NCBI RefSeq assembly: GCF_001552555.1
Contig: NZ_BCRK01000035.1
Span: 1-40,118, forward strand
Length of the DNA stretch: 40,118 nt
Direction: 5' to 3'
Source: Nocardiopsis trehalosi NBRC 14201
Lineage (GTDB): Bacteria; Actinomycetota; Actinomycetes; Streptosporangiales; Streptosporangiaceae
The position numbers and the translations under genes are program-made. The notes beneath the pieces are model-generated. The model worked only from the letters and a program-made list of their open reading frames with translations, was not told where the DNA came from and made no database searches. Positions 17,076-21,976 of this stretch are shown one piece after another; position 1 is the stretch's first letter; every line of letters starts with the position of its first letter.

Positions 17076-19256
17076 TCAGCCGCGGGCCAGGCGCAGCACC
17101 CGTTCGATGATCCCCTCGCCCACCGCGGCGGTGAGGATGGACTCGGGGTGGAACTGCACGGCCCACCGCTTCGCGGCGGGGTCCTCGATCGCCATGACCA
17201 CGGGCTCGTCGCCGTCGACCACGGCGGTGACCGCGAAGCCCTTCACCCGGTCGGGCGTGGTGTAGGTGGAGTGGTAGCGCGCCGCGCTGAACCCGCCGTC
17301 GAGCCCGGCCAGCAGCTCGCCGCCGGTGACCCGTACCCGGCCGGGCTTGCCGTGCACGGGCGCGGCGAGGGTGCGCAGTTCGCCGCCCGCGTGCTCCACC
17401 ATCGCCTGCAGGCCCAGGCAGACGCCGAACACCGGCAGCCCGCGCTCGGCGAGGACGTCGAGCAGCGCCGCCGTGCCGAAGTCGGACGGCAGGCCGGGGC
17501 CGGGCGACAGGATGACGAGGTCGGGGGCGAGGGTGTCGAGCAGCGCCGGGTCGAACCCGTGCCGCACGGTGGTGACCTCGGCGCCGTGCCGGCGGACGTA
17601 GTCGGCGAGCGTGTTGACGAAGGAGTCCTCGTAGTCGACCAGCAGGACGCGTTGGCCCGCGCCGGCCGGCGCGGGGGCCGCCTGCGGCGCGGCCGCGTCC
17701 TCGGGCGCGGCGTCCAGGGCCAGGGTCTCCAGCAGCGCGCGCGCCTTCAGGAAGGTCTCGCGCTCCTCGGCCTCGGGGTCGGAGTCGTAGAGCAGGGTGG
17801 CGCCGACGCGGACGGTGGCCACGCCGTCGCGGATCTGCGCGGTGCGCAGGGTCAGGCCCGTGTTCATCGACCCGTCGAAGTTGAGCACGCCCACGGCGCC
17901 GCCGTACCAGCGGCGGGGGGTGGCCTCGTGCTGCTCGATGAACCGCATCGCCCACGTCTTCGGGGCGCCGGTGATGGTGACCGCCCACATGTGGGTGAGG
18001 AAGGCGTCGAGCGCGTCGAACTCGGGGCGCAGCGTGCCCTCGATGTGGTCGACGGTGTGGATGAGCCGGCTGTACATCTCGATCTGTCGGCGGCCGATGA
18101 CCCGGACGCTGCCGGGTTCGCACACGCGCGACTTGTCGTTGCGGTCGACGTCGGTGCACATCGTCAGCTCGGACTCCTCCTTCAGGGAGGACAGCAGCTC
18201 GCGGATGTTCTCGGCGTCGCCGAGGGCGTCGTCGCCGCGCCGGATGGTGCCGGCGATGGGGCAGGTCTCGACGCGCTGGCCGCGGCCGGGGACGCCGGTG
18301 ACGCGGACGAACATCTCGGGTGAGGCGCCGACCAGGTACTCCCCCTCACCCAGGTTGAAGATGAACTCGTAGGGGGCGGGGTTGCGGGTGCGCAGGCGCT
18401 CGTAGAAGCGGGCCGGGGAGGCGCAGGCGCCGTAGGTGCGGTGCCCGGGGACGACCTCGAACAGGTCGCCGCGGACGAACTTCTTCTTGGCCTCGGCGAC
18501 GATGCGCGCATAGGAGCCGGGTTCGGGCTGGGGCGGCACCTCGGCGGTGACGACGGCGGGCGTGGGCTCGGTGGCGCGGGCCAGGCCGTCGGTGGCGGTG
18601 TCGCCGTCGGCCCCGGTGAACGCGGCGGGCACGGTGAAGTCGTAGGTGTAGCGGGTGCAGGTCTCGCGCTTGCGGTCGTGGACGATGATCTCGTCGGGCA
18701 GGTGCAGGAGGAGGTCGCGGTCGTCGGGGTCGCGGTCGAGGACGGGCTCGAGGGGCTCGAACTGGAAGGCGAGGTCGTAACCGAACGCGCCGTAGAGGCC
18801 CAGGTGGGGGTCGTCGGCGGCGGAGAACAGGGCGATCACCGAGCGCAGCGCCGAGAAGACGCTGGGGCGGCGGCTGCGCTGCTCCTCGGTGAAGAACTCC
18901 CCGGGGGCGGGCTCGGGGACGGTGGCCTCGACGGAGTCGGGGGCCGCGCCGGGGGCGGTGGGGGCGTGCTCGGCCAGGGCGCGGGCGACGACGGGCAGCA
19001 GCACCCGGCCGCGCGCGTTGAGCGCGGTGGCGGTGAGGCGGCGGCCCCGCGCGCCGATCTCGACGCACGGGTCCACGTAGCCCATGTGCCAGCGGCTGTA
19101 GCGGCCGGGGTACTCCATTCCGGAGGAGAGCACGCCGCCCCGGCGGTGGTCGACCGCCTCGGCGAGCTCGGCGAGCTCGACGGGGTCGCAGGCGGTGGCG
19201 GTGCGGCGGACGGTGAGGCCGCCGCCGGTGCGGTAGGAGGTGGAGCTTGCGTCCAA
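17076..19256 (-). CDS. trpEG: Fused anthranilate synthase (TrpE-TrpG)
   Basis: A 726-residue fusion catalysing chorismate + glutamine to anthranilate, the first step of tryptophan synthesis. Residues ~1-500 are the chorismate-using component: FEVVPGHRTYG, the NPAPYEFIFNLGE segment, VGASPEMFVRVTG, ETCPIAGTIRRG, CTDVDRNDKSRVCEPGSV and the WAVTITGAPK region. Residues ~525-726 are the glutamine amidotransferase: VLLVDYEDSFVNTLADYV, LSPGPGLPSDFG, the nucleophile in FGVCLGLQAM (~610) and HPES. The TTG start at 19256 is supported by AAAGGA six bases upstream. A leader peptide with tandem Trp codons and an attenuator lie upstream, arguing for a tryptophan role rather than phenazine or other secondary metabolism. 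No other trp genes are nearby; the gene is monocistronic and ends at a strong hairpin. Confidence 0.96.
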   Translation of the reverse strand: MDASSTSYRTGGGLTVRRTATACDPVELAELAEAVDHRRGGVLSSGMEYPGRYSRWHMGYVDPCVEIGARGRRLTATALNARGRVLLPVVARALAEHAPTAPGAAPDSVEATVPEPAPGEFFTEEQRSRRPSVFSALRSVIALFSAADDPHLGLYGAFGYDLAFQFEPLEPVLDRDPDDRDLLLHLPDEIIVHDRKRETCTRYTYDFTVPAAFTGADGDTATDGLARATEPTPAVVTAEVPPQPEPGSYARIVAEAKKKFVRGDLFEVVPGHRTYGACASPARFYERLRTRNPAPYEFIFNLGEGEYLVGASPEMFVRVTGVPGRGQRVETCPIAGTIRRGDDALGDAENIRELLSSLKEESELTMCTDVDRNDKSRVCEPGSVRVIGRRQIEMYSRLIHTVDHIEGTLRPEFDALDAFLTHMWAVTITGAPKTWAMRFIEQHEATPRRWYGGAVGVLNFDGSMNTGLTLRTAQIRDGVATVRVGATLLYDSDPEAEERETFLKARALLETLALDAAPEDAAAPQAAPAPAGAGQRVLLVDYEDSFVNTLADYVRRHGAEVTTVRHGFDPALLDTLAPDLVILSPGPGLPSDFGTAALLDVLAERGLPVFGVCLGLQAMVEHAGGELRTLAAPVHGKPGRVRVTGGELLAGLDGGFSAARYHSTYTTPDRVKGFAVTAVVDGDEPVVMAIEDPAAKRWAVQFHPESILTAAVGEGIIERVLRLARG

Positions 19257-19321
19257 GGCCGGTCCTTTGCGCGCAGTGCTGGGTGGAGGTGCGCCGCCGG
19301 ACCGGGGCCGGATACGACGAA

Positions 19322-19384
19322 GCGACCGCCGGTGCGGGCGGTCGCCGGTCGAGATGTTCGGGGTATGCGAACCGGAGCGCCGCC
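19322..19384 (-). promoter_or_regulatory. trp attenuator: alternative antiterminator and terminator
   Basis: Reading leftward on the RNA. Segment 2 (19371-19384, GGCGGCGCTCCGGT) can pair with segment 1 (GCGCCGC, 19390-19396, overlapping the end of the leader peptide) or with segment 3 (19337-19349, ACCGGCGACCGCC) in two 5-bp blocks. Segment 3 can instead pair with segment 4 (19322-19330) to form a perfect 9-bp hairpin, GCGACCGCC/GGCGGTCGC, as the terminator. The three pairings are mutually exclusive in the classical trp manner. The terminator is followed by TTCGTCGT rather than a pure U-run. Confidence 0.82.
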
Positions 19385-19428
19385 TAAGAGCGGCGCCACC
19401 ACTGGGAGTGCGGCGTTCGGATGCGCAT
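19384..19428 (-). CDS. trpL: Tryptophan leader peptide TrpL
   Basis: A 14-residue open frame, MRIRTPHSQWWRRS, with two tandem TGG codons three codons before the end, placed ~130 bases upstream of the fused anthranilate synthase. Its stop codon touches segment 2 of the attenuator. When Trp-tRNA is scarce, a ribosome stalled on the two Trp codons would cover segment 1 and free segment 2 to pair with segment 3, preventing the terminator; with ample Trp, the ribosome reaches the stop codon and the terminator forms. A -10 hexamer places transcription start exactly on the A of the ATG, so the leader mRNA is likely leaderless, as no ribosome binding site is present. Confidence 0.85.
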   Translation of the reverse strand: MRIRTPHSQWWRRS

Positions 19429-19435
19429 GCGGACC

Positions 19436-19441
19436 AGTGTA
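19436..19441 (-). promoter_or_regulatory. -10 element of the trpL-trpEG transcript
   Basis: TACACT read leftward; seven bases separate it from the A of the trpL ATG. The same hexamer appears before the FAD-oxidoreductase operon (6562-6567). The -35 region is weak. Confidence 0.6.
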
Positions 19442-19473
19442 GCGCGCGGCGCGGTGCCGCGGTACGGATCGGC

Positions 19474-19506
19474 GGGGGCGGGGGCGGGGGCGGGGGCGGG
19501 GGCGGG
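19474..19506 (+). repeat. Tandem GGGGGC hexanucleotide repeat between trpL and helD
   Basis: Five uninterrupted GGGGGC units followed by GGG, flanked on the left by GGC. Five-base G-runs separated by single C bases can form a G-quadruplex on this strand. The repeat lies between the trpL promoter and the divergent helD gene, ~33 bases from the first and ~85 from the helD start. Confidence 0.85.
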
Positions 19507-19591
19507 ATCGCACGACACCGGCGCCGCCTGATACGCTTCACCGTTGGCATTTCTGATGAAAAACGGACCCACACAGGAGTCTACCATCATC

Positions 19592-21976
19592 ATGGAGAAC
19601 CGTCAATCCGACGACGCGTTCACCGCGGCGCTCCGCGCCGAGCAGGCGCGGGTGACCGCCATGTACGAGCGGCTCGACCGGCTCCGCGAGCGCACCGCCG
19701 CCGCGGTGCGCGAGGTCCACGGGCGCGGCGGCGGGGGCGGCTACGCCGCCGTTGTCGAACGCGAGGTCGCCGCCGGGGAGCGGACCCGGCACCTGGCCCG
19801 GCTCTCCGCCGTCGAGGAGGGTCTGTGCTTCGGCCGGGTCGACCACCGCGGCACCGGCGGCTCCCCCGGTGACACCCTCTACATCGGCCGGATCGGCCTG
19901 CGCGACGAGGAGCACGACACCCTGCTGGTCGACTGGCGGGCCCCGGCCGCCCGCCGGTTCTACGCCGCCACCCCGGTGTCGCCGGGCGACGTGGTGCGCC
20001 GCCGCCACCTGTCCACCCGCGGCCGGACGGTCACGGGCCTCGACGACGAGGTGTTCGACCTCGACGCGCTGTCCGACGCCGACCGGCGGTCGCTGGTCGG
20101 CGAGGCCGCGCTGCTGGCGGCGCTGCGCCGGGGCCGCACCGGCCGCATGGCCGACATCGTCGCCACCATCCAGACCGAGCAGGACCGGGTGATCCGCTCC
20201 GGCCTGGCCGGCATCCTCGTCGTGCAGGGCGGCCCGGGCACCGGCAAGACCGTGGCGGCCCTGCACCGCGCCGCCTACCTGCTCTACACCCACCGCGCGG
20301 TCCTGGAGCGGCGCGGGGTGCTGGTGGTCGGCCCCAACGCGACGTTCCTGCGCTACATCGGCCGGGTGCTGCCGTCGCTGGGCGAGACCGACGTCGTGCT
20401 GTCCACCGTCGGCGAGCTGTTCCCGGGCGTGCGGGCGCGCGCCGTCGACCCGCCGCGGACCGCCGTCGTCAAGGGCGCGGAGCGCATGGCCGACCTGCTG
20501 CGCGCGGCGGTGGCCGACCGCCAGCGCACCCCCGCCGAGGCCGCGGCCGCGGGCGCCGCCCCCGACACCGGGGGCGACCTGCGCGTGGCCGTCGACGACA
20601 TGGTGCTGACGGCGGGCGCCGAGGTGTGCCGGCGGGTGCGCGACCGGGCCCGCGCGCTGCGCCTGCCGCACAACGTCGCCCGCAAGCTGTTCGTCAACGA
20701 GCTGCTGCCCGTGCTCGCCCGCGACCAGTGCGCCCTCCTCGACCGGCCGGCCGACGCCGCCGACCTGCGCCACGTCCAGGCCGCGCTGTGGAGCGAGCCC
20801 CCGGTGCGCGCGGCCCTCGACGCGCTGTGGCCGCACCTGATCCCGCAGGAGCTGGTCGGCGGGCTGCTGTCGGACGCGGGGGCGCTGCGCCGCGCGGCGG
20901 CGGCCGCCGGGCTCGGCCCCGCCGACCGCGACGCGCTGGCGCGCCCGGCCGACGCGCCGTGGACCGTGGGCGACGTGCCGCTGCTGGACGAGGCCGCCGA
21001 ACTCCTCGGCGAGGACGACTCCGCGGAGCGGGCGCGCGGGCGGCGGGCGGCCGCCGAACGCGCCGACGCCGAGCGCTACGCGCAGGGCGTCCTGGAGTAC
21101 ACCGGCCTGTACGAGGACGGCATGATGGCCGCCGCCGACCTGGCCGACCGCCACGCCGCCGACCCCGGCGGGCCGCCGCCCACCACCGCCGAGCGGGCGG
21201 AGCGCGACCGCACGTGGGCCTACGGGCACGTCATCGTGGACGAGGCGCAGGAGTTGTCGGAGATGGCGTGGCGCATGGTCATGCGGCGCGTCCCCGCGCG
21301 GTCGCTGACCGTGGTCGGCGACATCGCGCAGACCGGCAACCCGGCCGGGGCCCGCTCCTGGGCGGGCATGCTCGGCCGCTACGCGCACGGACGGCTGCAC
21401 GAGGAGCGGTTGCTGGTGAACTACCGGACGCCGGCCGGGATCATGGCGGTGGCGGCGGACGTGCTGGCGGCCGTGGCGCCGGACCGGCGCCCGCCGGAGT
21501 CGGTGCGCGACGACGGCGACCCGCCGCGCGCGGTGCGGGTGCCGCCCGGCGCGTGGGCGTCGGTGCTGCCCCGCGTGGTGGCGGCGGAGCTGGCGGCCGT
21601 GCGCGACGACGGCGCGGGCGCGGGCCGGGTGGCCGTCATCACCCCCGACGAGCGGCACGCCGCGACGGCCGCCCTGCTGCCCGGCGCGGTGGCCGACGCC
21701 GCGCCGGAGGCGCTGGACGCCCCGGTGGCCGTGCTCACGCCGACGGCCGCCAAGGGGCTGGAGTTCGACGCGGTGGTGGTCGTGGAGCCGGCCGCGATCA
21801 TGGCGGGCTCGCCCATGGGCGGGCACGACCTCTACGTGGCGCTCACCCGGGCCACCCGGCGGCTGCTGGTGGTGCAGGAGGGCGAGCCGCCCGACGTGCT
21901 GGCGCGGCTGCGCCCGGCCGGGCCGCCGCCCGGTCCGGGCGGGGCCGCGGAGGCGGCCGGGCCGGGCGCGGGCTGA
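19592..21976 (+). CDS. helD: HelD-type UvrD-like helicase (RNA polymerase recycling factor)
   Basis: A 794-residue superfamily-1 helicase-like ATPase of the HelD/HelR group, which binds RNA polymerase, removes it from stalled complexes and in some actinomycetes displaces rifamycins. An N-terminal charged coiled coil (RAEQARVTAMYERLDRLRER) resembles the arm HelD inserts into the polymerase. YIGRIGLRDEEHDTLLVDWRAPAARRFY is a strong family block. ATPase motifs: Walker A GPGTGKT (214-220), VIVDEAQE (~546), VVGDIAQT, NYRTPAGIM, AAKGLEFDAVVVVEP (~717) and LYVALTRATRRLLVV (~747). ATG 19592 has AGGAG 12 bases upstream. I looked for the rifamycin-associated inverted repeat that precedes helR genes and did not see it, so drug induction is not supported. 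It is divergent from trpL. Confidence 0.9.
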   Translation: MENRQSDDAFTAALRAEQARVTAMYERLDRLRERTAAAVREVHGRGGGGGYAAVVEREVAAGERTRHLARLSAVEEGLCFGRVDHRGTGGSPGDTLYIGRIGLRDEEHDTLLVDWRAPAARRFYAATPVSPGDVVRRRHLSTRGRTVTGLDDEVFDLDALSDADRRSLVGEAALLAALRRGRTGRMADIVATIQTEQDRVIRSGLAGILVVQGGPGTGKTVAALHRAAYLLYTHRAVLERRGVLVVGPNATFLRYIGRVLPSLGETDVVLSTVGELFPGVRARAVDPPRTAVVKGAERMADLLRAAVADRQRTPAEAAAAGAAPDTGGDLRVAVDDMVLTAGAEVCRRVRDRARALRLPHNVARKLFVNELLPVLARDQCALLDRPADAADLRHVQAALWSEPPVRAALDALWPHLIPQELVGGLLSDAGALRRAAAAAGLGPADRDALARPADAPWTVGDVPLLDEAAELLGEDDSAERARGRRAAAERADAERYAQGVLEYTGLYEDGMMAAADLADRHAADPGGPPPTTAERAERDRTWAYGHVIVDEAQELSEMAWRMVMRRVPARSLTVVGDIAQTGNPAGARSWAGMLGRYAHGRLHEERLLVNYRTPAGIMAVAADVLAAVAPDRRPPESVRDDGDPPRAVRVPPGAWASVLPRVVAAELAAVRDDGAGAGRVAVITPDERHAATAALLPGAVADAAPEALDAPVAVLTPTAAKGLEFDAVVVVEPAAIMAGSPMGGHDLYVALTRATRRLLVVQEGEPPDVLARLRPAGPPPGPGGAAEAAGPGAG

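Follow-up and report, generated by a model that had tools for sequence, protein, structure and literature searches.

The window analyzed here, the whole 40,118-nt stretch from Nocardiopsis trehalosi NBRC 14201, encodes a fused anthranilate synthase (trpEG) on its minus strand. Among named sequences, those closest to this trpEG come from Streptomonospora and Nocardiopsis. A scan of 17076-19253 identified the domains Anth_synt_I_N, Chorismate_bind, and GATase. The start of trpEG is probably the TTG codon at 19256, which is preceded by AAAGGA and lies 127 nt after the stop codon of a short leader frame. The features of the leader region, including four switch strands and a further predicted pairing (P0), are as follows.

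19436..19441, minus strand: -10 hexamer TACACT, separated by 7 nt from the leader ATG
19384..19428, minus strand: leader peptide ORF, MRIRTPHSQWWRRS*, 14 codons followed by TAG, with its start codon at the putative RNA 5′ end
19396..19401, minus strand: tandem Trp codons TGG TGG, within the leader ORF
19419..19428, minus strand: 5′ strand of P0, AUGCGCAUCC, which includes the start codon
19389..19396, minus strand: strand 1, pairing with strand 2
19377..19384, minus strand: strand 2, forming 8 pairs with strand 1 (1:2), with the UAG spanning the loop and strand 2
19365..19375, minus strand: 3′ strand of P0, CCGGUUCGCAU, directly 3′ of 1:2 and partly reused in the predicted 2:3 fold
19337..19346, minus strand: strand 3, GGCGACCGCC, of which the pairing with strand 4 (3:4) covaries in relatives
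19321..19330, minus strand: strand 4, GGCGGTCGCT, the other side of the covarying 3:4 stem, followed by TCGTCG with few T
17076..19256, minus strand: trpEG, fused anthranilate synthase, probable TTG start

None of the scanned neighboring ORFs is a trp gene. Downstream, trpEG is followed by a Thy1 ORF in the same orientation and next by an oppositely oriented CstA gene, and the intergenic region of the trpEG leader is shared with a divergent UvrD-type helicase gene (19592-21976, plus strand), which may be HelD-like. A run of CCCCCG-type repeats is visible by eye just upstream of the promoter (19471-19506, minus strand). The same genome carries a second, diverged anthranilate-synthase-like region on contig C15 (21176-23392; L001, L084, and L085), in which the GATase part precedes the synthase part, and a search of this region with the attenuator model gave no convincing match. 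This covariance model (R1), which was built from 55 sequences including the window and contains P0, found one convincing place in the 6.4-Mb genome, namely the window leader (E 4.2e-13); the next match had an E-value of 1.26, and no convincing second copy of the attenuator was found in this search.

The locus was originally predicted to be a complete trp attenuator whose Trp-Trp leader peptide is leaderless, and its visible parts were confirmed: the 14-codon frame runs from 19428 to 19384 on the minus strand with TGG TGG at 19401-19396, the -10 hexamer at 19441-19436 is exactly seven bases before the ATG, and no Shine-Dalgarno sequence precedes this ATG in the window. The best match to a -35 box in the window was 2/6, and none was convincing. 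Based on the spacing of the -10 hexamer, the 5′ end of the leader mRNA is probably located at, or within about 1 base of, its own AUG.

Trp codons and pairing were found to be kept in the bacterial family of the window (f1), as opposed to the loss that would have spoken against the original prediction. In this family, 142 of 150 genomes hold trpEG; 110 upstream regions (30 loci and 80 stretches) were examined, and 32 genomes were left out. A leader frame of 5-35 codons with tandem Trp codons occurs in 107 of the 110 regions (WW in 87 and WWW in 20), the regions without one being L092, L116, and L148. By eye, L092 has a leader start but its hairpin loop lacks a stop codon, and L116 has a single W. 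In 95 of the 107 leaders, the motif TAnnnT precedes the start codon by 6-8 nt, compared to 15 of 1539 other ATG/GTG codons in the same upstream DNA, although the former figure is somewhat favored because leader starts were picked with a preference for TAnnnT (56 of the 107 loci had one ATG/GTG candidate, and 51 had two to four). A Shine-Dalgarno-like motif was present in 0/107 leaders at the place tested, and the -35 box is enriched in the family (82/103 score at least 3/6, versus 42% of shuffles). Exclusion of L124 and L140, which failed the strand-2 rule, and of one duplicate over the first 100 nt left a set of 104 sequences, 96 of which have a hairpin of the form GRCCGYC...GGCGGYC 3′ of strand 2. 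L150 was further omitted from the MAFFT alignment A1 (55 rows), the 3:4 and 2:3 permutation tests, the neighbor swaps, and the f1 openness calculations described below.

The letters of the leader peptide vary in the family except at a few positions, and its translation is predicted, which leaves some room for an untranslated frame within a terminator that acts constitutively or within a riboswitch of a new type. Such a reading is hardly credible, given that WW or WWW is kept in f1 (107/110) and at the trpE loci of three other families (30/30 in f18, 18/19 in f19, and 8/9 in f36), that no Rfam match of note appeared at E up to 10, and that the literature treats relatives in Streptomyces venezuelae and S. 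lividans as tryptophan attenuators. Rfam 15, which includes a Trp_leader family, gave no gathering match in the window; the three weak matches in 19200-19560 (E 3.3 to 9.4) are unrelated. Comparison of the family sequences gives good support to a trp attenuator of the ribosome-mediated type, with a leader peptide that is leaderless.

In such an attenuator, stalling of a ribosome at the Trp codons would occlude strand 1 and let 2:3 form ahead of the synthesis of strand 4, and transcription would continue; with a ribosome reaching the stop codon, or with none, 3:4 would form and transcription would end. The 3:4 stem in the window is GC-rich and has 9 pairs plus G.U, and both of its sides changed at one pair in 25 of 55 aligned sequences. 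The U-tract is poor: of the 8 bases that follow the window stem, 3 are T, and the mean over the 104 sequences is 3.75/8. Folding of 128 nt of the window leader gave a z-score of -2.29, and RNAalifold on the MAFFT alignment recovered 1:2 and 3:4 only. Comparison of own and permuted duplex energies, for which 3:4 served as the positive control (z -9.8), gave no covariation for 2:3 (z -1.4, family set without L150).

When the Trp codons were masked as if occupied by a ribosome and strand 4 was absent, 2:3 was the minimum fold of the window (-16.8 kcal/mol), whereas the full-length window RNA folded into 3:4 when untranslated, with a ribosome at the stop codon, or with a stalled ribosome. Because the full-length RNA gives 3:4 even in the stalled state, the switch depends on 2:3 preceding the synthesis of strand 4, and 3:4 in every full-length state agrees with a decision taken before strand 4 exists. 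The 2:3 antiterminator is a plausible, modeled component. The three pairings of the original prediction hold in that 1:2 and 3:4 are present and 2:3 can fold, but the list was incomplete, as a fourth pairing at the 5′ end has comparative support.

This pairing, P0, was first seen in single folds of relatives, in which the 5′ end AUGCGAACC pairs with GGUUCGCAU just 3′ of 1:2. In the window, AUGCG (nt 1-5) is predicted to pair with CGCAU (nt 60-64) at pair probabilities of 0.84-1.0, with two further C-G pairs (0.84-0.85) and one A-U pair (0.29). The window P0 is weak (5 pairs, mismatches, and then 2 more; 3.9% of shuffles are as good) and below the family average, and codon 2 of the window is CGC, unlike the CGA of most relatives. 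The best P0 duplex has a run of at least 8 paired bases on the 5′ strand in 62 of the 104 relatives.

In a diverse subset (n=56), the duplex energy of P0 with its own partners was -13.10, compared to -10.55 with permuted partners (z -8.8, reached by 0/5000 permutations), and three controls with shifted segments gave z-scores of -0.2, +1.6, and -1.1. The full set (n=104) behaved similarly (z -10.1; shifted controls -1.2, -0.7, and -1.7). In swaps of partners between nearest neighbors, which respect kinship, the own partner was better in 23, worse in 9, and tied in 5 of the 37 differing pairs among 51 made (sign test p 0.02), while two negative controls gave p 0.30 and 0.34 and the positive control 3:4 gave 15 to 4. 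In alignment A1, three measures for P0 exceeded those of all 500 shuffles (0/500 each): the proportion of paired cells (79.2% versus 75.1), double-change cells (30 versus 17.1), and covariation (0.171 versus 0.125, and at most 0.073 when the partner was slid). The other two of the five measures, which are those least prone to false alarms from relatedness, did not exceed the shuffles, as pairs changed on both sides numbered 6 versus 5.1 (reached by 184/500 shuffles) and further pair types 19 versus 17.6 (139/500).

Individual positions were examined in a strictly anchored, no-indel set of 68 of the 104 sequences. The facing base is C for 4/4 GUG starts and for 7/64 AUG starts. Pairs 8 (41 versus a shuffle mean of 30.1, max 42) and 10 (47 versus 28.6, max 43) lie above the shuffles and pair 11 weakly so (32 versus 23.8, max 35), whereas pairs 7 (46/68 versus 46.5) and 9 (41 versus 41.3) show no excess. 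Moreover, codon 2 is CGA in 87 of the 104 leaders, or 87 of the 97 with Arg as the second codon, while in the trpEG genes of 60 named loci CGA makes up 49 of the 3651 Arg codons, which indicates that letters are kept here beyond the amino acid alone. These computations support the retention of P0 in relatives beyond the effect of common composition.

Folding of growing transcripts predicts when the start codon is accessible. For the window start codon, the predicted probability of being unpaired does not change monotonically with transcript length: it amounts to 0.59 at nt 30, 0.98 at nt 53, 0.07 at nt 66, 0.27 at nt 98, and 0.07 at nt 114. In f1, mean openness is 0.81 until P0 becomes able to form and 0.35 thereafter, or 0.71 when the 3′ segment of P0 is shuffled. 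The profile thus predicts a start codon that is open during the synthesis of strand 2 and shut soon after. P0 would pair the first ~10 nt of the RNA, which include the start codon here, with the segment 3′ of 1:2, closing the window start codon once ~64 nt of RNA are out. Initiation without a Shine-Dalgarno sequence is reported to require a local absence of structure (PMC3121790). A leaderless message offers ribosomes no second place to enter, and P0 should therefore leave the first ribosome a short loading time and then block further initiation. In addition, P0 takes letters needed by 2:3 and would hold the strand-2 region apart from strand 3; leaders that are untranslated or released should then fold into 3:4, and basal read-through would be low. 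In the stalled state of L121, P0 outcompetes 2:3 unless the 5′ end is also masked.

Our main reading, to which we assign a probability of roughly 0.7, is thus a ribosome-mediated trpEG attenuator with a leader RNA starting at its AUG, in which P0 is proposed to shut leader translation and to leave the switch off by default. P0 might instead be an outer extension that stabilizes 1:2 in a plain classical trp attenuator, with no role in ribosome entry. This is possible, with well short of an even chance in our estimation: P0 surrounds 1:2 and belongs to the same side of the switch, the AUG in f18 and f36 is often outside the helix, and the helices of several distant trpEG leaders are near rather than at the 5′ end, but the first base in f1 is paired in 60 of the 68 anchored sequences and 43 of 52 rows of A1, and structure at the start codon hinders initiation without a Shine-Dalgarno sequence (PMC3121790). 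The AUG is free at 0.57 after P0 can form and at 0.69 in the whole leader in f18, and at 0.67 and 0.81 in f36, and the common role may therefore be to hold strand 2 rather than to hide the AUG.

With an E-value limit of 0.01, model R1 gave matches in 81 of the 296 genomes of the class, matches that are biased towards P0 because the model contains it; among 40 hits that were fetched, the readable ones precede ORFs resembling trpE or trpS by eye. For unbiased sampling, the trpE loci of f18 (inferred to be the Streptomyces family), f19, and f36 were taken by protein without the RNA model, and trpE protein matches at the cut-off used were found in 59/61, 19/22, and 9/60 genomes, respectively. The WW leaders counted above for these families (30/30, 18/19, and 8/9 loci) have TAnnnT 5-9 nt before the start, the starts having been chosen with the same TAnnnT preference. 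P0 in f18 has different letters and gave a z-score of -5.5 in a diverse set (n=23) with null controls, and a pooled set (n=30; 17 from f1, 8 from f18, 4 from f36, and 1 from f19) gave -6.4. No clear P0 signal was found in f19 (n=18, z -1.3) or f36 (n=8, z -2.0), where control segments scored similarly.

The halves of P0 are near-perfect inverted repeats around the putative start site in many f1 members, as might be expected of a transcription factor operator in the DNA at +1 and ~+60. An operator would be expected to conserve its letters, whereas those of P0 differ between families with the pairing kept, its spacing varies, and bulges and register shifts occur; because sequence and spacing change, this reading was rejected as very improbable. 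Retaining the reading of P0 as an RNA helix that closes the leader, we tentatively extend it to the leaderless trp attenuators of Actinomycetes before trpE and trpS, and perhaps to distant fused trpEG leaders: these may carry a conserved 5′-terminal lock in which the start-codon region is itself a switch strand, with ribosome entry only during the first ~65 nt of synthesis and a default-off state after, a generalization that falls slightly short of even odds.

The trp leader of Escherichia coli and the his leader of Salmonella are not leaderless, with start codons away from the RNA end, and the ribosome-binding site of the E. coli trp leader pairs with distal leader RNA. In Sinorhizobium meliloti, trpL contains three Trp codons in a row. 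The attenuated gene of S. venezuelae is a fused trpEG. Similar to the window, E. coli trp has a 14-residue peptide, Trp codons at positions 10 and 11, and I:II, II:III, and III:IV logic, and its description includes super attenuation without leader translation; in Salmonella his, an extra hairpin has been proposed to cut read-through after ribosome release and so to lower the basal level (PMC1183508).

The original prediction regarded a leaderless leader before a fused trpEG as an unusual design. This novelty does not stand, as leaderless leaders have been published in S. lividans (PMC8079986) and S. meliloti (PMC7298713), and the observation at the locus is thus confirmed while its interpretation is partly supported. 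The S. lividans trpL1-trpE unit is like the predicted window leader in its leaderless ORF, consecutive Trp codons, two hairpins, and monocistronic anthranilate synthase gene, and it also has a uridine-enriched stretch; it differs in its 18-residue peptide with WWW, and P0 is not mentioned in the part of the published description that was examined (PMC8079986). An f18 peptide, MFAHSTQNWWWTAHPAAH, is one residue off the published S. lividans trpL1 (PMC8079986), and f18 trpE leaders with this type of peptide also show P0. In S. meliloti, the 5′ end of rnTrpL starts with the trpL ATG before trpE(G), the peptide has 14 residues, and trpE(G) is set apart from the other trp operons, with control by attenuation only during growth; it differs in that S. 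meliloti is an Alphaproteobacterium in which the terminated RNA, like the peptide, acts in trans (PMC7298713).

Among actinomycetes, classical trp attenuators have been predicted before the trp operons of Corynebacterium and Streptomyces, with experimental work on S. venezuelae and C. glutamicum (PMC1262725, PMC4833913), and the attenuator of S. venezuelae, reported by Lin, Paradkar and Vining in 1998, is alike as an actinomycete trp attenuator studied by experiment (PMC1262725, PMC4833913). The response of S. venezuelae was reportedly reproduced by models only when RNA triplexes were added (PMC4833913). If P0 works as proposed, it would be a candidate for the missing piece in these models. 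P0 was not found described in the titles, abstract openings, and parts of papers that were searched, and an earlier description is possible. These comparisons suggest that P0 is an added feature that makes an otherwise known type of attenuator a variant. The start codon is the sole ribosome entry signal of a leaderless leader, and here it is apparently one strand of a conserved helix; if true, the loading of ribosomes, the use of each leader only once, and a low basal read-through would all be coupled by a single helix.

Upstream of trpS-like ORFs in the family of the window and in f18, leader frames that combine two Trp codons with a closing helix are also visible by eye (L255 and L256; L236, L237, L239, L241, L244, and L264). 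In addition, WWW leaders precede distant fused trpEG genes from Chloroflexi, Bartonella, Mesorhizobium, and Binatia/Binatota records (L080, L078, L081, L067, and L070). In single folds of 11 distant leaders, a closing helix is predicted close to the 5′ end in these five, and weakly or not at all in the others.
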